Shown: positions 37,560 to 46,081, counted from the stretch's first letter. The stretch: 64,000 nucleotides of DNA from an uncultured Bacteriovoracaceae bacterium (GCA_937931205.1 CALHBF010000015.1:186001-250000), one strand, 5' to 3'. Made by a program: numbers and translations. The notes: a model not told the origin generated them from the letters alone.

Positions 37560-37744
37560 AAAATGATCTGAAGTTGACTAACTCAGGGGTGGCCAACTGA
37601 AAATCAATTTAGTGAAGTTAACTAGCTGGTAGAAGGCGGCAGGAAAATCTAAATCTTGCAGGATAGCTCTCTATGAAATGAGTTATTTTACAAGTAAAGG
37701 TTTCGAGCTAGACCCCTGAGTTAGCTAATATCACAAAATGATCT
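37560..37744. repeat. 10-bp direct repeats flanking structured element copy A
   Basis: AAAATGATCT occurs at 37560-37569 and again at 37735-37744, 8 and 10 bp outside the terminal stems of copy A. The arrangement resembles a target-site duplication from insertion into the short envC-ctpA gap. No equivalent was found around copy B. Confidence 0.6.
37578..37724 (+). repeat. Structured element, copy A (147 bp)
   Basis: The ends form a perfect 13-bp stem: CTAACTCAGGGGT at 37578-37590 with ACCCCTGAGTTAG at 37712-37724. Inside, read on the plus strand, are GTGGCCAACTGAAAA, a variable hairpin, GTAGAAGGCGGCAGGAAAA, a short hairpin (GCAGG with CTTGC) and a TAGCTC...GAGCTA stem. The core is nearly identical to copy B at 45101-45248 on the opposite strand, while the outer stem differs in sequence. 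This points to a conserved RNA or single-stranded DNA fold. It lies between the envC-like gene and ctpA, antisense to both in this orientation. Confidence 0.88.
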
Positions 37745-37745
37745 A

Positions 37746-38756
37746 CTAGATTTTACTAACTACTTGATTCTCTAACCACAAAATAGTGTTCTGAGCGGTG
37801 TTTTTCTTTCTTACTTCAAAGTAGAGAGACTGAGGTGTTGAGTCTTTGTGAGTATAACCAATAATGTCTTGAGAGCTGACATTATCATTCTTTTTTACTT
37901 TGATGTTCATTCTGCCTAAGAAAACGGTACGTAGGTCATTGCCGTGATCAATCAATACCACTTGCCCGTAAGAGGCCAGATCTCCTGAATACATCACTTT
38001 TCCAGAAGCTGGGGCCTTAATTGGCTGAATCGAATCATACTTGAACGTCACCCCTTTATCAGAGGGAGTCATCGAAATGAAATGATCAACAGGGTTTGGA
38101 AATACTTTTTCTGCTTTTTTTAAATTAACAGGAGCTTCTGAAAAAGTTTTTTTGATTGCTGCAAATTTAACTTTAACTTTGTCTTCTTGTACCTTTTTCT
38201 CAAGCTCACCTTTCTTCTCTGAGGCTACCTGATATTTGGCCATCAAATTCTGTTTAGAACTTTCAAGATCTAAAATAACTTTCTCCAGTGTCGTCTCTTC
38301 TCTCTTTAGCTCTTCGAGTTTAATCTCAAAACTTGCTACTTTGTGAGCAAAGGTACTCAACTCCAGATTTTGGGCCTTCAGTTTATTCTGCGCCTGACGA
38401 AGAAGATCCAAATGAATCTTTTTTTGCCATAGCGGAGATTCCTCTGACTCGGCTTCTAAAAGATAATTGGTCACGATCTTTTTGTTATCTTTTTCAGTTT
38501 TAATTAATTTGCGCTGAAGAGTTTTTAACTCTTCCTTATAAAGACCGACATCATTCTCAAACTTTTTAATTTCTTCCAAGTTCGATTGATAGAGATTTGA
38601 TTTTTGTGAGATCTCTTTTTCCAGAGTACTCAGACGTGCTCCCATACTCGTCACTTCACTGCGATGACGAGCAAGTTCATCCTGCACACGCGGCTTCTTC
38701 TGTGCCAGAGCACTAAAAGAGAGTGTTAAGATAAGAGAAGCACTAAGTAATTTCAT
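37746..38756 (-). CDS. envC: EnvC-like murein hydrolase activator
   Basis: 336 residues from the ATG at 38756, whose ATGA overlaps the ftsX stop. Signal peptide (MKLLSASLILTLSFSALAQ), long coiled coil (about 22-200), then a LytM domain that has lost its zinc ligands: the HLHFE motif reads SLYFEV and the first HxxxD is absent. EnvC proteins of this kind do not cut peptidoglycan but activate amidases under control of FtsEX, encoded just upstream. That order (ftsE-ftsX-envC) supports the assignment. Confidence 0.9.
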   Translation of the reverse strand: MKLLSASLILTLSFSALAQKKPRVQDELARHRSEVTSMGARLSTLEKEISQKSNLYQSNLEEIKKFENDVGLYKEELKTLQRKLIKTEKDNKKIVTNYLLEAESEESPLWQKKIHLDLLRQAQNKLKAQNLELSTFAHKVASFEIKLEELKREETTLEKVILDLESSKQNLMAKYQVASEKKGELEKKVQEDKVKVKFAAIKKTFSEAPVNLKKAEKVFPNPVDHFISMTPSDKGVTFKYDSIQPIKAPASGKVMYSGDLASYGQVVLIDHGNDLRTVFLGRMNIKVKKNDNVSSQDIIGYTHKDSTPQSLYFEVRKKNTAQNTILWLENQVVSKI

Positions 38757-39553
38757 AGTGAAGGTTTCCACTTCCATTCTTGCAGAGTAAAAGTCCAAAT
38801 CACTGATAAAATCATGAACAGAACAAGTGAATCAATGATTCCCAATGTTCCATTCCAAAGTCCCATAAGAAAAAAACCAACAGCAACAGCACCGATCCCA
38901 GCGGCCAGCGATTTAGCAGCGACCATCTTCTTGCGCTGAAACTTCTCGATGAGATAAGAACGAGAACGGAAACTGTCATAAGTTAACCAGAAACTGATGA
39001 TCCAGAACAGAGCAACAACTCCAACCACTCCCCAGTCCCCAGCTGAGTTTAAAAACTCATAAAAAGGATGAGAGTTCATTACTTTCGTTACTTCCGGAAA
39101 TTTTACTTCTGTAGCCGATATATGATCATTACTTCCCAGCTTTACCACTTGGTCACGAACAAACTTTAAACTCTCATTAGAAAGAGTCGGACTAAGCATC
39201 ACACGAAGAGATTTTAATTCTAAAAACTTGGCATCAACTTCGTAATCAGTACCAAGAGTTTCAACCAGCTCGCTGATCTTTGATTTTGATTTCGTTGATT
39301 CCTGATCATCGATTGATACGACTCCAGGAAACTTCTTAATCAGTGTTACTAGTTTTCCAGCATCCACTGTGCCATCAACCACGGTAACAAAATAAGGATT
39401 CACTAATTTCTCAGGACTGATGCGTGAAATCGTCTGACCGATCCATTCTCTATGGGTCAGAGAAAAACAAAGAGCACAAGTCAGAAGGAAGAAAGCAATC
39501 CCCTTCACCAAAGACTCGTGGAGTGATTTAAAATATTCTACTAGATAAAACAC
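38753..39553 (-). CDS. ftsX: FtsX-like cell division permease
   Basis: 266 residues with the FtsX plan: one span near the N-terminus (about 18-36), a periplasmic domain of about 130 residues, then three spans (about 172-190, 208-232, 238-256). Sequence is divergent, but position between ftsE and the envC-like gene is decisive. It passes the FtsE ATPase cycle to EnvC. GTG start, overlapping ftsE by 13 nt. Confidence 0.88.
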   Translation of the reverse strand: MFYLVEYFKSLHESLVKGIAFFLLTCALCFSLTHREWIGQTISRISPEKLVNPYFVTVVDGTVDAGKLVTLIKKFPGVVSIDDQESTKSKSKISELVETLGTDYEVDAKFLELKSLRVMLSPTLSNESLKFVRDQVVKLGSNDHISATEVKFPEVTKVMNSHPFYEFLNSAGDWGVVGVVALFWIISFWLTYDSFRSRSYLIEKFQRKKMVAAKSLAAGIGAVAVGFFLMGLWNGTLGIIDSLVLFMILSVIWTFTLQEWKWKPSL

Positions 39554-40242
39554 GCATGCCCCGCATACACCAGTCTTCCAGAATCAAGATGCGCAATCTT
39601 TCCTGGAAACTGTTTAATAAGATCTTTATTATGAGTGGCCCACACTAAAGTGAGTCCTTTTTTATGATTGTAGTGATTAAGAACTTCGAAGAGACGATAA
39701 GAATTATCTTTATCCAATGAGCTTGTCGGCTCGTCGGCCAAGATTGCTGTCGGACGGGAAAGCAGAGCTCGAATCATCGCCACTTTTTGGCGAAGACCAC
39801 CATTACAATCTTCAATCTTTCGATTTAAGAAATCATTCACATAAAGCATGCGACCGAGATCTTCCATCTCTCTTTGGAAATCATTTTTTGAATTATAAAT
39901 AAGCGGATCGTAGGCCATCCACAGATTCTCTTCACAAGTTTTTTTCTGAAGCAGGCGAAGATCTTGGAAAACAGAGGCCACAAAATGTTTGCTTGAGCGC
40001 TGGTGAGGTAGTATCGCTTTGCCACTAGTTGGCTCGATATGACCGCCAAGAATATTGAGAAGTGTTGTCTTTCCGGCACCAGATGGACCTGTGACAAAAA
40101 GAATTTCTCCGGGATGAATCGTTAGTTGAACTGACTTCAATGCTCGAACGTTACCGTATTCAACGGTAAGATTATCGAGATGAAATAAGTAGTTTTGGTG
40201 ACTTAACCCAGCTTGATGGGGTAGACTTCGACCGGTTAACAT
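39541..40242 (-). CDS. ftsE: Cell division ATP-binding protein FtsE
   Basis: 233 residues, ABC ATPase. Walker A GPSGAGKTT (about 53-61), Q-loop VFQDLRLL, signature CNGGLRQKV in place of LSGGQ, Walker B AILADEPTSSLD and the switch His in WATHNKD. FtsE and FtsX form the septal complex that drives EnvC. The altered signature motif is notable but keeps GG and the following basic residue. Confidence 0.93.
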   Translation of the reverse strand: MLTGRSLPHQAGLSHQNYLFHLDNLTVEYGNVRALKSVQLTIHPGEILFVTGPSGAGKTTLLNILGGHIEPTSGKAILPHQRSSKHFVASVFQDLRLLQKKTCEENLWMAYDPLIYNSKNDFQREMEDLGRMLYVNDFLNRKIEDCNGGLRQKVAMIRALLSRPTAILADEPTSSLDKDNSYRLFEVLNHYNHKKGLTLVWATHNKDLIKQFPGKIAHLDSGRLVYAGHACFI

Positions 40243-40270
40243 CCGTGAAACCTGCCTTCTTTAGTTCACA

Positions 40271-40289
40271 AGGCCCTCATGGCCTTGCT
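40271..40289. promoter_or_regulatory. Hairpin in the ftsE leader
   Basis: CAAGGCC and GGCCTTG form a 7-bp stem about 30 nt before the ftsE start. On the plus strand it is followed by CTTTTAT, so it could stop antisense transcription; on the sense strand it has no U tail. Confidence 0.4.
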
Positions 40290-40323
40290 TTTATGTTATG
40301 CAAACATTGTACCGAAAATCGTC

Positions 40324-40366
40324 AAAAAAAGTAAAGTCCCAAGGAGATTATCCCTAAGGAATAATC
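40324..40366 (-). terminator. Probable terminator of the HD-domain gene
   Basis: A 9-bp stem with one G-U pair (40346-40354 with 40358-40366) overlaps the stop codon of the HD gene; a run of seven Us follows at 40330-40324, about 15 nt after the stem. The distance is long, so termination may be weak. Confidence 0.4.
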
Positions 40367-41781
40367 CCCTCTTTTTTCAGAATCTCAAAGGCAGATTCAG
40401 AGCAAAAAATATTCGGAACGAAGTTAAACTTGTTCTGAAGATTAGAGATAATGGAGTTTTCCATATCTCCCAGGAGCTTGACGTCTCCGTTATCAGTAAG
40501 AATCTTGGCCGGATCACGTTCAAGAAGTAAGTTTTCCCCACTTTTTGACTTCACAATCTTTCTGCGGCTTTTCACAAACACAATATGCTTCTTCGGAATA
40601 TCGACCAGTACCCAATCCTTATCCGTTCCTTTCTTTTTCAGAACTTCCTGAATCTCACGGGCCTTATCCTCTGCATGCTTGATGATCTTATCATTCACAT
40701 GATCTTCATCTTGGTTAAGGATTCTTTGTTTAAACTCTTCCATGCGGATCGTTTTCGGGGCTTTCTCAAAAAGCAGGCAGTAGGCCATGTCTTTAATACG
40801 AGCTGACTTATCAAAATGCCCTTCAAGATAGTGTCTGTGAACTTGCTGCATAAAGTACTGATCATTAAATCCGTAGAACTCCAGCGGTCTATGAGCAATC
40901 ATATCCATTAACTGCGAGTACGAATAAATCAGTCCCTTCTCCAGCATATAGTAAGTCACTTCCTCAGCAATAGCGTCAAAGCGAGCTCCACGGGCCGAAC
41001 GAATAACCTGTGAGTACCAAGCAAAGCGGGCCATTAAGAAATCTTCCACTGCATGCATGGCATTCTGGTTAATAGTCAAAATATCGTGTCCATTAACTTT
41101 GGCGATTCTGAAGTGATGAAGCAAATAATCTCTATCATAAGTGCCGTACTTCATTCCCGAATAGTGAGCATCTCGCAGGAGATAATCCATACGATCGCAG
41201 TCAATTTCTGAATGAAGAATCTGATTAGCAAGAATTGAAGGATCTATCCCTTTCACTAAATCAGAAATGTGTTGAGGACTGATACCATACTTTTTAAGAA
41301 TGAAAGTAATCCCACCTTCATAGTCGGTATTCTTGATGATGTAAGAACCTAGATGTTCATGATCATCTGGATGACCTTTACCATTCTTATCTTTAGTGGT
41401 CTCACCATAGCGAATGTAGGCCATCTCTGTGGTATGAGAGAACATGAATGTTCCCAAATCATGAAGAAGGGCCGCCAGTCTTAAGCTTTGATGATATTTC
41501 TTAGCATCTGAATGAAAAGAATTATCAAAAAGTTCCTTATCACTCACACCACGAGAACCAAGCGTCTGAAGAATTTTATGAGCATTAAACATCACTCCAA
41601 TCGAGTGACCAAAACGTGAATGCTCAGCTCCAGGGAAAGTATAAAAGGTAAAACCTAATTGCTTAATCCAGCGCAGACGTTGATAAAAAGGAGTATGAAT
41701 GATTTCCCATTCAAGACTTGTAAGATGAATAAAACCGTAAAGGGGATCAAAGACGATCTTAGGCTTATCAATAACTTCCAT
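40354..41781 (-). CDS. HD-domain phosphohydrolase (SAMHD1/YwfO-like)
   Basis: 475 residues. The metal-binding HD motifs are intact: SRFGHSIGV (His), ALLHDLGT (HD) and later SEIDCDRMDYLLRD with the final Asp. This pattern belongs to the COG1078 group, including dNTP triphosphohydrolases such as SAMHD1. The C-terminal 180 residues are less conserved. Likely a nucleotide phosphohydrolase; the substrate cannot be read from sequence. Confidence 0.88.
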   Translation of the reverse strand: MEVIDKPKIVFDPLYGFIHLTSLEWEIIHTPFYQRLRWIKQLGFTFYTFPGAEHSRFGHSIGVMFNAHKILQTLGSRGVSDKELFDNSFHSDAKKYHQSLRLAALLHDLGTFMFSHTTEMAYIRYGETTKDKNGKGHPDDHEHLGSYIIKNTDYEGGITFILKKYGISPQHISDLVKGIDPSILANQILHSEIDCDRMDYLLRDAHYSGMKYGTYDRDYLLHHFRIAKVNGHDILTINQNAMHAVEDFLMARFAWYSQVIRSARGARFDAIAEEVTYYMLEKGLIYSYSQLMDMIAHRPLEFYGFNDQYFMQQVHRHYLEGHFDKSARIKDMAYCLLFEKAPKTIRMEEFKQRILNQDEDHVNDKIIKHAEDKAREIQEVLKKKGTDKDWVLVDIPKKHIVFVKSRRKIVKSKSGENLLLERDPAKILTDNGDVKLLGDMENSIISNLQNKFNFVPNIFCSESAFEILKKEGIIP

Positions 41782-41795
41782 GTGACCTAGCTTCT

Positions 41796-41831
41796 AAAAA
41801 AAACAAAGCCCCGAGCATTCATGCTCAGGGC
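41796..41831 (-). terminator. Terminator of the 65-residue gene
   Basis: A stem of 5+4 bp with one mismatch (41808-41817 with 41822-41831) and a TTCA loop is followed on the minus strand by UUUGUUUUUUUU. It also separates this gene from the HD gene. Confidence 0.9.
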
Positions 41832-41844
41832 CTTAAGAGTAATT

Positions 41845-42042
41845 TTACTGTAGAGTTTTAGCTTTTCTTGTTTTCTTCACTTTCGCAACTTTGCTGATAG
41901 CGTATTCCATCAACATGAAAGCTTCGCGACGAAGTCCATTTTCATGAATATAGCGATAAAAGTTTTCGATATCGCTGTTACTACGGAAATTCTTAATGGT
42001 TGTCCCTTCCGTAGCTTTTTCTGTATTTTCTGACTTAGTCAT
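41845..42042 (-). CDS. Small basic protein of unknown function (65 residues)
   Basis: A clear GGGAG site 6 nt before ATG and a strong terminator 13 bp after the stop support a real gene. The middle (SDIENFYRYIHENGLRREAF) is helical and the end is Lys-rich (KVKKTRKAK), as in small nucleic-acid-binding proteins. No family recognised. Confidence 0.75.
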   Translation of the reverse strand: MTKSENTEKATEGTTIKNFRSNSDIENFYRYIHENGLRREAFMLMEYAISKVAKVKKTRKAKTLQ

Positions 42043-42098
42043 ATATTCTCCCTAATTTGTTTATTCTACTCATTCTGGCTCAACTCTTCAAGAAACTC

Positions 42099-43586
42099 TT
42101 ACATCTCACGAGCTTCAATTAGTCCGTATGAGTGAAGCTTGTTATAAAGAGTCTTCACTGTGATACCAAGGGCTTTCGCTGCACGAGTCTTGTTACCATT
42201 TAAATGATCAAGAGTGTCAATAATATGTTTCTTCTCAAGATCATAAAGTGTTGCTTCAGAGAACTTAATCGCAGCAGCAACAACTTCAGCTTTCTCCTCT
42301 CTTGGGAAATCAGGAAGCTCAGAAGCTTCGATATACTGACCTTCAGAAAGAATATAAGTACGCTCCATAACGTTTTTTAGCTCATGAGCGTTACCTGGCC
42401 AAAAGTAACCATTAAGTTTCTCGATAGCAGCTGAAGTAAGGATCTTAGCTTCAGATTTACCGTTATTAAGGAAAAACTCTGCCATAACTTTAATATCTTC
42501 AGAACGCTCTCTTAGAGTTGGAACAACTAGAGAGATAGTGTTCAAACGGTAGAAAAGCTCTTCTTTAAAGTTACCAGCTTCAACTTCACCACGAAGAGAA
42601 ATTTTTGAAGTAGCGATAATTCTAACGTTTAGAGCAACTTTTTCTTCAGTATCAACAGTTGTCATTTCACCAGAAACGATAGCACGTAGAAGCTTCGTTT
42701 GGATTAGTGTTGAACAAGAAGCAATATCGTCAATAATAAGTGTTCCACCATTAGCTTGAACCATTAGACCTTTAGAGCTAAAAAGTTCACGATCAAGTTG
42801 AGTCTCATTAAGAACTGAACAGTTAGCAACAACACATCCACCTTTACGAGCTGACCAAGCGTGAATTTTCTTAGCTAGAATTTTCTTACCAGTTCCGTGA
42901 GCACCTTCAAGAAGTACTGGGAAATCTTGAGTAGAAACTTTCTTAGCAGCTTGAACAACATCAAGGAAATTCTTAGAAACACCAACCATTTGAGACTTAT
43001 CTTCAAAGTGAGAGATTGTTTTAATTTCTACACGATTAGAAAGTTCTTTTTCTTTAGCTTCGATACGGCCAAGAAGCTCACGGTTAAGATTCTTAGTCAT
43101 AAGGAAAAGGTGCATATTCTTGATTGGAGCAGCAAGCTCTACAAGGATATTATTGATAGCAGCGATATCAGATTCAGAGAATTGACGACCAACTTCAGCA
43201 GACTGAACGTTGATTGTACCAATCACCGAAGATTCAAACATTACAGGGATACAAAGTTCAGCCTCAACATTGTTAGACTTAAGGCCTGTAGAAGCAATAG
43301 GATCTCTTTTTACAGAATTTGAATAATAAGCTCTTTTCATACGAGCTACGTAACCAGAAAGACCTTGGCCTTTGTTAAGAAGCTTAGCAGTTGAAAAAGC
43401 TTTACCGTTTTCAGCGATCAGGCGAGTAGAACCATCATTAAGAACTTCAAAACCTAAAACTTGGTGAGCTGGAAAAATCTGAGCTACGAACTCAGTCATT
43501 TTCGAGAAGAATACAACTTCATCAAGATTAGCAAGTAGAACTGAAGAAAGAGTAGCAAGTTCGTTCTGGATTGAAGCAGTTTTCAT
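42099..43586 (-). CDS. GAF-AAA-Fis regulator lacking the GAFTGA loop
   Basis: 495 residues, NtrC-like. A GAF domain spans about 10-155. The AAA domain has Walker A GAHGTGKK at 228-235, Walker B GGTLIIDDI at 280-288, FYRLN and LRERSEDI with arginine fingers, and WPGNAHELKN. A Fis-type helix-turn-helix (NKTRAAKALGI) ends it. The segment between ELF and ANGG, which normally holds GAFTGA, is cut to a few residues, and the Walker B Glu is Asp. GAFTGA contacts sigma-54, so this protein probably does not activate sigma-54 promoters and may act as a repressor or sigma-70-type regulator, like TyrR. Confidence 0.9.
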   Translation of the reverse strand: MKTASIQNELATLSSVLLANLDEVVFFSKMTEFVAQIFPAHQVLGFEVLNDGSTRLIAENGKAFSTAKLLNKGQGLSGYVARMKRAYYSNSVKRDPIASTGLKSNNVEAELCIPVMFESSVIGTINVQSAEVGRQFSESDIAAINNILVELAAPIKNMHLFLMTKNLNRELLGRIEAKEKELSNRVEIKTISHFEDKSQMVGVSKNFLDVVQAAKKVSTQDFPVLLEGAHGTGKKILAKKIHAWSARKGGCVVANCSVLNETQLDRELFSSKGLMVQANGGTLIIDDIASCSTLIQTKLLRAIVSGEMTTVDTEEKVALNVRIIATSKISLRGEVEAGNFKEELFYRLNTISLVVPTLRERSEDIKVMAEFFLNNGKSEAKILTSAAIEKLNGYFWPGNAHELKNVMERTYILSEGQYIEASELPDFPREEKAEVVAAAIKFSEATLYDLEKKHIIDTLDHLNGNKTRAAKALGITVKTLYNKLHSYGLIEAREM

Positions 43587-43653
43587 AGTCTATCCCCTTT
43601 ACACTTTTAAATCATAAACTGACTAAAAATTACTCAGTGCGTTATATGGGTAG

Positions 43654-43682
43654 ATATTACATCCTGCCTGAAAAATTTACAA
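43654..43682 (-). promoter_or_regulatory. Candidate promoter of the GAF-AAA-Fis regulator
   Basis: TTGTAA (43682-43677), 17-nt spacer and TAATAT (43659-43654) on the minus strand, with a leader of about 60 nt. Each box matches consensus at 4 of 6 bases. Confidence 0.35.
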
Positions 43683-43725
43683 GACTATTTTGCTGCGGTG
43701 TTTAAACTTTCTTCGGCTTTTGCCC

Positions 43726-45081
43726 TTAATTCAAGATGTTAGTAAACATCGGAGAGAAGCATTTACCGAAATTCTGGGTTAATTGCCCTAAAACCTCACC
43801 CTCTCTATTCATAATGTATATTTCTTGGACGGCCTTGCGAGAATTAATGACCCTTTTACTAGTAAAAACAATGAATTCGCCATCAGGGCTGAAGATCGGA
43901 TCTTCGTTAGAACCAAAGTCTTTTGTGAGTCTGACTAGGTTTTGGCCATCGGCCCCTATCTTATAGATATCAAAGCCATTATCTACCCATGAAGCAAAAA
44001 CAATCTCTTTTCCATCTGGACTAAAACGAGGGGTTGCATTGAATTTCCCTACAAAAGAGATGCGCTTAACGTCTTTCTCTGTTTGTGATGGATCCATCGT
44101 ATAGATATGAGCGCGACCTGGACGGTTCGATAGGAAAGTCATCATTGAGCCATCTGCGGTAATAGATGGGTCTACATCTTCACCATAGTGGCTTGTTACT
44201 TTTCTCATCGCACTGGTAGCAAGGTTCATTTCGTAGATATCAGCATTTCCACCGGCAGTTAGAGTCAGATAAATAATATTAGGATCTCTTGAGTAAGTTG
44301 CCCCCGAGTTCAAACCTGGCTTGCTTGAAACTGTAGTCATACTCTTTGTTTGCAGATCATACATCTTTAAGTTGATGTTCTTGATGAGCTTCTTTTTATT
44401 ACGGCTTGAGAGTGCCTGCTTATCTTCAATTACTGAGAAAAGAAGCTTTTTATTATCAGGAGAAATAGAAGGAGATAAAACGATAGAGTTGAAAGTTGTT
44501 AGCTTCTCAACACGACGTCCATCAAAGTCCATAATATAGAGTTCTTTTTCAATATCACGGGAACGAGTTGTTCTATCTGAGATGAAAACGATCTTTGATT
44601 TAAAGATAGAAGGCTTTCCTGTCATCGCTCGGTAAAACTTATCAGAGATTTCATGACCTTTAGAGCGCAGGTCATTGCTGTTCACTGTTACTGAATCAGT
44701 GAAAACCATTTTCCCGTCATGAATATTCCAAAGCTTAAACTTAGCTTCAACTCCACCGGAAGCAGGAACAATAGAAGAAGCGATAAAGAAGTTAATTCCA
44801 TCCTCTTTCCATTGAGTCAGATTTTCAGTCGTGTAAGAGTTGGCCGACTTGTTATAAAGAACAGTATTGAATTTATGCTTATAGAAAACAAAGTTGTTTC
44901 GAATAAGATCAAGTAGTTCATTGGCCAATACTTTCTGAGAGCTCGAAAGATTACTTAATTCCGAAGAATCAATGACCAGTTTATCTTTTTCCTGCTCAGC
45001 ATCCCCTACTGCAATAACTGCATCTTGAGAAAAACTTGAAACAGAGAACATAACGAAGAATAGTGATAATAAAAATTTCAT
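43726..45081 (-). CDS. tolB: Tol-Pal system protein TolB
   Basis: 451 residues. Signal peptide ending SFSQ, an N-terminal alpha/beta domain (about 25-160), then a six-bladed beta-propeller with repeated PSISPDNKKLLFS, PSITADGSMMTF, PRFSPDGKEIVFA and PIFSPDGEFIVF. It links Pal to TolA in the periplasm during outer-membrane constriction. GGAG is 5 nt before ATG. No pal follows in the window. Structured element copy B separates it from tolA. Confidence 0.95.
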   Translation of the reverse strand: MKFLLSLFFVMFSVSSFSQDAVIAVGDAEQEKDKLVIDSSELSNLSSSQKVLANELLDLIRNNFVFYKHKFNTVLYNKSANSYTTENLTQWKEDGINFFIASSIVPASGGVEAKFKLWNIHDGKMVFTDSVTVNSNDLRSKGHEISDKFYRAMTGKPSIFKSKIVFISDRTTRSRDIEKELYIMDFDGRRVEKLTTFNSIVLSPSISPDNKKLLFSVIEDKQALSSRNKKKLIKNINLKMYDLQTKSMTTVSSKPGLNSGATYSRDPNIIYLTLTAGGNADIYEMNLATSAMRKVTSHYGEDVDPSITADGSMMTFLSNRPGRAHIYTMDPSQTEKDVKRISFVGKFNATPRFSPDGKEIVFASWVDNGFDIYKIGADGQNLVRLTKDFGSNEDPIFSPDGEFIVFTSKRVINSRKAVQEIYIMNREGEVLGQLTQNFGKCFSPMFTNILN

Positions 45082-45100
45082 ATCGACTCCAATTAAGATT

Positions 45101-45248
45101 TCAATCTTGGGGGTCTAGCTCGAATCTCTCATTTGTAAGAAAACTCATCTCTAAGAGAGCTAAGGAGCAGGTTTTATTTTCCTGCCGCCTTCTACAATTT
45201 TGAAATTCAAAAAAATTATTCTTTTCAGTTGGCCACCCCCAAGATTGA
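45101..45248 (-). repeat. Structured element, copy B (148 bp)
   Basis: A perfect 14-bp terminal stem (TCAATCTTGGGGGT at 45101-45114 with ACCCCCAAGATTGA at 45235-45248) encloses a core that on the minus strand reads GTGGCCAACTGAAAA, a different AT-rich hairpin, GTAGAAGGCGGCAGGAAAA, a perfect GCAGG/CCTGC hairpin, then TAGCTC...GAGCTA. Except for the G tract, the outer stem shares almost no bases with copy A yet still pairs fully. It lies 11 bp after the tolA stop and 19 bp before tolB, sense to both. The 3' arm can also pair with the tolB leader (AAGATT with AATCTT), an alternative fold that would open the outer stem. Confidence 0.88.
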
Positions 45249-45259
45249 CCAACAATCTC

Positions 45260-46081
45260 CTATAGAGGAAACCCGAGAATAATCCCATAAGTGGCCAGGC
45301 GAACTCCTACACTCTCAGATGGAGCAGGAAAAGGAGCAGCGTCTTTGACAGCTCTTAGGGCCTTGTCATCAAACTCTGCAACTCCTGAAGATTCTACCAC
45401 CTCAGATTTCACCAACTGACCTTTATTATTTAAATAAACTTTAACTCTACATTTTAAATTTTTGTTCATGAGGTAACTTGGAAGTTTCCAATGCACTCTC
45501 ACCTTCTCAGGCATCGACTGAACATAGGCCGAGAACTCAGAGCTTGCTTCACCCGTCACGTCCCCTACTAAAGCAGTTCCGGCAGAAACTTTGTTTCCTT
45601 CCATAATAAGGGAATCAAGAACCTTGCTGCCATTGCCAGAGATGATCGTGTTAGTAGGCTTTTTACCAGGTACTTCTTTTTTCTTTTCTACTTTTTTAGA
45701 AGAATAACCTGCTAGAAGATTATTGAAGTCGCTCTTTTTTTTCTGCTCTTCAATAACAAGATCACCTTCTTTAATCACATCTTCCTTCACTTCTTCTTTA
45801 GGAGTCTCGGCTACCGTAGGTGCTGGAGCCTCTTCCGGTTTTGCCTCGGGCTCTGCAGGAGCTGCATTCTTTTGCAATTCCTTCAATTCCTGAACTGTGA
45901 ACTTAGGCATCCCCACCACATCCACACGCACCGATGAACGGATAATTTCGATTTCATTATTGCGCGAAGGGTGAAGAAGAACTTTCGTTGCAAAGAGAGC
46001 GAATAAAATGAAGAGGACGTGTGCCCCAAAGGAAATCACAAAAGATTTTTTAATATCGTCTGTAACGTTTAAACTCGTCAT
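45260..46081 (-). CDS. tolA: TolA/TonB-like energy-transducing protein
   Basis: 273 residues. A cytoplasmic N-tail, one span (about 13-35, FVISFGAHVLFILFALFATKV as residues 14-34), a Pro/Glu/Lys-rich periplasmic stalk (70-150), and a C-terminal domain like TolA/TonB (RVHWKLPSYL, CRVKVYLNNKGQLV, AEFDDKALRAVKDAAPFP). It transmits the proton motive force used by TolQR to the outer membrane. The tolQ-tolR order identifies it as TolA rather than TonB. Confidence 0.9.
   Translation of the reverse strand: MTSLNVTDDIKKSFVISFGAHVLFILFALFATKVLLHPSRNNEIEIIRSSVRVDVVGMPKFTVQELKELQKNAAPAEPEAKPEEAPAPTVAETPKEEVKEDVIKEGDLVIEEQKKKSDFNNLLAGYSSKKVEKKKEVPGKKPTNTIISGNGSKVLDSLIMEGNKVSAGTALVGDVTGEASSEFSAYVQSMPEKVRVHWKLPSYLMNKNLKCRVKVYLNNKGQLVKSEVVESSGVAEFDDKALRAVKDAAPFPAPSESVGVRLATYGIILGFPL

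Follow-up and report, generated by a model that had tools for sequence, protein, structure and literature searches.

Three copies of a short sequence in the draft genome of an uncultured Bacteriovoracaceae bacterium most probably represent a new family of small, non-coding, MITE-like non-autonomous mobile elements of about 165 bp that insert by staggered cuts (probability about 0.8). Two copies lie in the window, the 64,000-nucleotide stretch of DNA analysed here, where the original prediction had placed them, with their motifs as quoted and their outer stems perfect. Copy 1 (positions 37570-37734, plus strand) occupies the gap between an envC-like M23 gene and ctpA and is antisense to its operon. 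Copy 2 (45091-45256, minus strand) lies between a tolA-like gene and tolB, in the sense orientation. A search of the genome for further copies, suggested by the original prediction, finds a third on another contig (G000:C8, L003:1441-1605), also in the sense orientation and with compensatory changes in its outer stem. It separates ispA from a gene that we take to be gspN-like, whose product has no Pfam match. BLAST and covariance model (CM) searches both leave the total at three, in a single draft genome that is 86% complete. With the borders set, the copies measure 165, 166, and 165 bp, a near-constant length given their internal indels; the borders reach about 7-10 nt beyond the stems on either side. 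These lengths fall in the 50-500 bp range of non-coding MITEs, and neither window copy contains an ORF of at least 80 aa.

The gene neighborhoods of related genomes provide the first line of evidence for insertion. The genes flanking the three sites are conserved neighbors in same-genus genomes, and every readable junction is short: 7-11 nt between tolA and tolB (e.g., CTATAGGAGCGATT-ATG), 4-12 nt between the gspN-like gene and ispA, and 15-35 nt between envC and ctpA, with the larger listed gaps extending past the ATG into the downstream gene. About 15-25 relatives are readable per site, a few contigs being broken at the junction or lacking a clear orthologue. Since the sites are empty in all readable relatives, the element is an insertion in the present lineage. 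In the envC-ctpA gap of several relatives (e.g., L063, L070, and L072), a small palindrome, GACTGATAATCAGT, sits between a conserved ATCTAA stop and a TTTAGGAG/CTAGGAG Shine-Dalgarno sequence, and is possibly a small conserved regulatory hairpin.

Target-site duplications provide the second. Perfect direct repeats flank copy 1 (AAAATGATCT, 10 bp, at 37560-37569 and 37735-37744) and copy 3 (AAGGAAAGA, 9 bp). The duplication at copy 2 has decayed to an exact 4 bp, GGAG, found upstream at 45257-45260, where it overlaps the tolA stop, and downstream at 45087-45090, at the likely tolB Shine-Dalgarno sequence; this remnant was placed by deleting the insert, which yields CTATAGGAGTCGATATG, resembling CTATAGGAGCGATTATG in relatives. 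Random pairs of 30-nt stretches from the window share a word of at least 9 bp in 0.4% of trials. Removal of the insert and one repeat restores the gaps to the likeness of those in relatives, where the AAAATGATCT repeat of copy 1 is absent as a pair. A blind scan for long inverted arms with a flanking duplication flags a single locus in the window, copy 1, and a single one in a further 400 kb, copy 3. Target-site duplications (10 bp and 9 bp, with GGAG left at copy 2) and relatives without the insert are features of a MITE.

These results bear on how the element was first described. Empty sites and target-site duplications establish the proposed element that moved, and its mixed orientation to genes, together with the empty sites, agrees with the statement that it is not a simple riboswitch: a riboswitch would keep a fixed upstream orientation and be conserved at orthologous genes, whereas copy 1 is antisense and the relatives' sites are empty. 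The description "not a normal transposon end" holds insofar as terminal sequence is not conserved, yet the 9-10 bp duplications are the footprint of a staggered cut. Conserved terminal inverted repeats shared with an autonomous transposon, a further hallmark of MITEs, were not found. Staggered-cut insertion would account for the 9-10 bp duplications, and the element persists in this genome where an operon leaves just a few bases between the stop codon of one gene and the Shine-Dalgarno sequence of the following gene. At copies 2 and 3 the target overlaps the Shine-Dalgarno sequence, and its duplication means that the downstream gene still has a ribosome site beside it.

The three copies share 75-80% identity in their cores. 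The blocks GGGGTGGCCAACTGAA, GTAGAAG-CGGCAGGAAAAT, TAGCTCTCT, and TTCGAGCTAGACCCC are invariant. In copy 1, a core block, GTAGAAGGCGGCAGGAAAAT, spans 37629-37648 on the plus strand and differs by one base in copy 3; the 3' block, TTCGAGCTAGACCCC, spans 37702-37716 on the same strand, is exact in all three copies, and occurs nowhere else in the genome at two or fewer mismatches. With up to three mismatches allowed, the core motif has an expectation of 0.02 occurrences in the window, where it is observed twice. The invariant blocks are clustered beyond chance, with a longest run of 16 (p ~0.007) and a sum of 52 over the four longest runs against 26 expected (0/5000). The invariant subterminal blocks could be binding sites for a protein.

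The duplications also suggest when the copies diverged. They match at 19/19 positions, an outcome with a probability of ~0.007 at 77% per-position identity. Had the 20-25% core differences accumulated after insertion, the duplications would be expected to have changed too; the differences therefore probably mostly predate insertion. This suggests that the copies diverged before inserting, and that pairing was kept while the element was mobile, outside its present host sites. In copy 3, one of the two repeats overlaps a Shine-Dalgarno sequence and may be under constraint, which somewhat weakens the argument, and the timing of insertion is coarse since even the relatives within the genus are distant, with TolB 60-67% identical.

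The ends of the element pair with each other. The outer stems are formed by CTAACTCAGGGG (37578-37589) and CCCCTGAGTTAG (37713-37724) on the plus strand in copy 1, by TCAATCTTGGGGG (45236-45248) and CCCCCAAGATTGA (45101-45113) on the minus strand in copy 2, and by CAATGTTGGGG and CCCCAACATTG in copy 3 (inner extent L003:1450-1595); pairing is perfect in both window copies. Between copies, the arms agree at only 3-4/8 positions on the 5' side and 2-4/8 on the 3' side. In the three-copy alignment, both sides of the outer helix have changed in 6 of 13 pairs while 97.4% of cells remain paired. Across the whole structure, seven pairs have changed on both sides, compared with 2.3 +/- 1.2 for shuffled controls (0/500 reach seven), and no more than 29-46% of cells pair when the structure is slid along the alignment. 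The three sequences used for the test also yielded the structure, and with so few of them the case for covariation is confined to the outer helix; three copies from one draft genome also make the statistics thin. Internal helices are mostly invariant or are broken in one copy. A G-U to G-C change in an internal GCAGG hairpin had been taken as evidence of maintained pairing, an argument that fails: this helix (helix 4) breaks in copy 3, pairs in 89% of cells, and contains no double-changed pair. The TAGCTC/GAGCTA pair is present as described, but it never varies and hence offers no evidence of covariation.

Arms that are complementary and otherwise free in sequence suggest a use for pairing, at the DNA or the RNA level. 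Selection for pairing, as the original prediction had it, is plausible rather than proven, since DNA polymerase can switch templates and so rewrite one arm from the other with no selection involved. On this account, which is a real possibility though short of even odds, quasipalindrome correction at a long inverted repeat maintains the arms of a plain MITE; it challenges the selective part of the explanation and leaves the mobile element intact. Every formed pair in the outer arms is Watson-Crick, without a G-U intermediate in three copies, unlike the internal stems, which contain G-U pairs and mismatches. Template switching is a documented maker and repairer of perfect stems and creates multibase compensatory changes (PMC8794818). 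It leaves the retention of the invariant core blocks unexplained, however, and an imperfect inner inverted repeat adjoining the arms has stayed uncorrected. If the lack of outer G-U pairs points to anything, it is arm copying or recognition at the DNA level over selection on RNA only. RNA-only selection is disfavored because outer G-U pairs are missing, both strands fold about equally, and copy 1 is antisense.

The arms might instead belong to the target, the core having inserted into pre-existing palindromes such as terminators or REP-like hairpins. This would account for the arm differences between copies, but it is scarcely credible given that the duplications sit outside the arms, that the 5' arms have a common GTTGRYYAA-like start, and that the relatives' tolA-tolB and gspN-like/ispA gaps, albeit in distant genomes, are too short to hold a palindrome. 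All three 5' arms open with this GTTGRYYAA-like stretch, and the 5' end of copy 3 (L003:1442-1470) is a near tandem repeat, GGGGTTGGCCAAT-GTT-GGGGTGGCCAACT; together these features are perhaps a trace of how the arms originated.

An enzyme supplied in trans would move the MITE-like element, and would recognize the invariant subterminal blocks along with a form, folded or inverted-repeat, that the outer arms close. A stronger proposal is that mobility depends on RNA or single-stranded DNA structure, with free-evolving complementary arms and fixed subterminal blocks taking the place of terminal sequence and a staggered-cut footprint being left behind; this is rather unlikely.

A SINE-like RNA intermediate is improbable. 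On this route the outer helix would close a folded transcript, and reverse transcription would then place the copy at a staggered nick. Conservation of pairing and not of terminal sequence would fit such a route, as would the varying duplication lengths (9 and 10) and the plus strand, which folds better than shuffled sequence (z -4.6, -5.6, and -2.7 in the three copies). The minus strand folds comparably, however (z -3.8, -4.8, and -4.4), and neither a poly-A nor another 3' tail is present. The sole reverse transcriptase (RT) found in the genome, 86% of which is represented, is of the UG9 defense type and not a retroelement RT, although the source of an enzyme could be elsewhere. This lone RT gene (L141:1078-2709; G000:C14, ~116660-117055) has the UG9 "small" defense RT as its best match (PADLOC E 1.7e-91) and is followed by an overlapping second ORF; judged from sequence, the locus is likely a DRT-type anti-phage system.

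It is equally doubtful that the host uses the element, in envelope and isoprenoid operons, as a functional RNA acting in cis or as a small RNA gene. Invariant blocks within a covarying closing stem resemble the conservation of a riboswitch or small RNA, and two copies lie in envelope operons. Against this, the sites are empty in all readable relatives, no other genome of the phylum that was searched shows the element, and copy 1 is antisense to its operon. The suggestion of a free-standing small RNA fares poorly, as no promoter or terminator rises above background at the element and no orthologous locus exists. Rfam yields no match at gathering score, and nothing near it even with E up to 10. 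Like the element, Rfam riboswitch and small RNA families have a conserved core within a P1-like stem that varies freely, but the element matches none of them, is mobile, and occurs in operons in both orientations.

A Rho-independent terminator can be rejected, as the outer stem has no T-tract on either strand. Read-through is probably to be expected, since a T-tract is lacking after the stem and the element itself holds no site resembling a promoter or terminator; the inserted element would be transcribed with its operon as a long hairpin. By analogy with YPAL and NEMIS, effects on message regulation are possible, as are effects on mRNA stability or processing.

The CM search of the genome and its relatives, another proposal of the original prediction, adds only copy 3: no convincing copy beyond the three was found in the element's own genome, 129 family genomes, or 369 phylum genomes, in large searches that used fast filters, scored part of the first-look candidates, and could miss strongly diverged relatives. 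No further locus in the element's own genome carries its ends, and distant blastn searches of phages, plasmids, and E. coli genomes return nothing. Several candidates were set aside. Weak CM matches on contigs C5 (24 bits) and C7 (22 bits) of the same genome contain none of the core motifs. GTAG core matches in two contig records are unrelated, the Desulfobulbaceae record giving no model match at E<=10 and the Ruminococcus record 14.2 bits. A Planococcus match from a search of short ends against plasmids falls within transposase-coding sequence and not at an end. Among viral contigs searched with four patterns, the loci read are coincidental, and the best CM score, 21 bits, falls in a phage region without the core. 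In that phage contig (L146:12111-12286), CAATGCGGTGGCCAACTGAAAA is accompanied by a matching CCGCATTG ~150 nt away, with no core blocks; the likeness is probably due to chance. The simple-site pattern of integron attC sites is RYYYAAC/GTTRRRY. The element does not show this pattern and does not fit attC by eye.

Judged by features and not by sequence, the element is most like YPAL/RU-2 of Yersinia, its nearest known counterpart. YPAL inserts close after stop codons. YPAL/RU-2 is ~168 bp long and hairpin-forming, has duplications of 3-26 bp and no TA ends, and is known from empty and filled sites (PMC2229807); its conserved structure scored strongly (PMC2267715), and message-regulation effects have been proposed for YPAL and NEMIS (PMC2229807). 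Length, hairpin, variable-length duplications, and insertion in gene-end gaps are all shared with the new element. YPAL copies are many, however, and their targets lie near dyad symmetry, whereas here there are three copies with covarying closing arms. Homology is not indicated: local alignment to RU-2, as printed in PMC2759123, is no better than shuffled (p 0.84-0.99). Other bacterial MITEs, including ERIC/RU-1, Correia/NEMIS, and RUP, are likewise small and non-autonomous, with terminal pairing, duplications, and stable hairpin transcripts (PMC2229807; PMC10969869). Small non-autonomous form, terminal pairing, and target-site duplications link them to the new element, but most of them have terminal inverted repeats and TA ends (PMC2229807), whereas the new element has a 9-10 bp duplication and terminal sequences that are not conserved.

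The element is a clear example of a hairpin placed in operon gaps of a few bases with the ribosome site retained. It also carries a caution: in a mobile element, template switching, and not RNA function, may be the source of strong stem covariation. Conserved terminal sequence is the usual defining mark of a bacterial MITE. In this element the ends covary, so that recognition by sequence can be told apart from recognition by pairing, and structure-guided insertion becomes testable. Structure-dependent mobility, if true, would be a new, structure-guided route of insertion.
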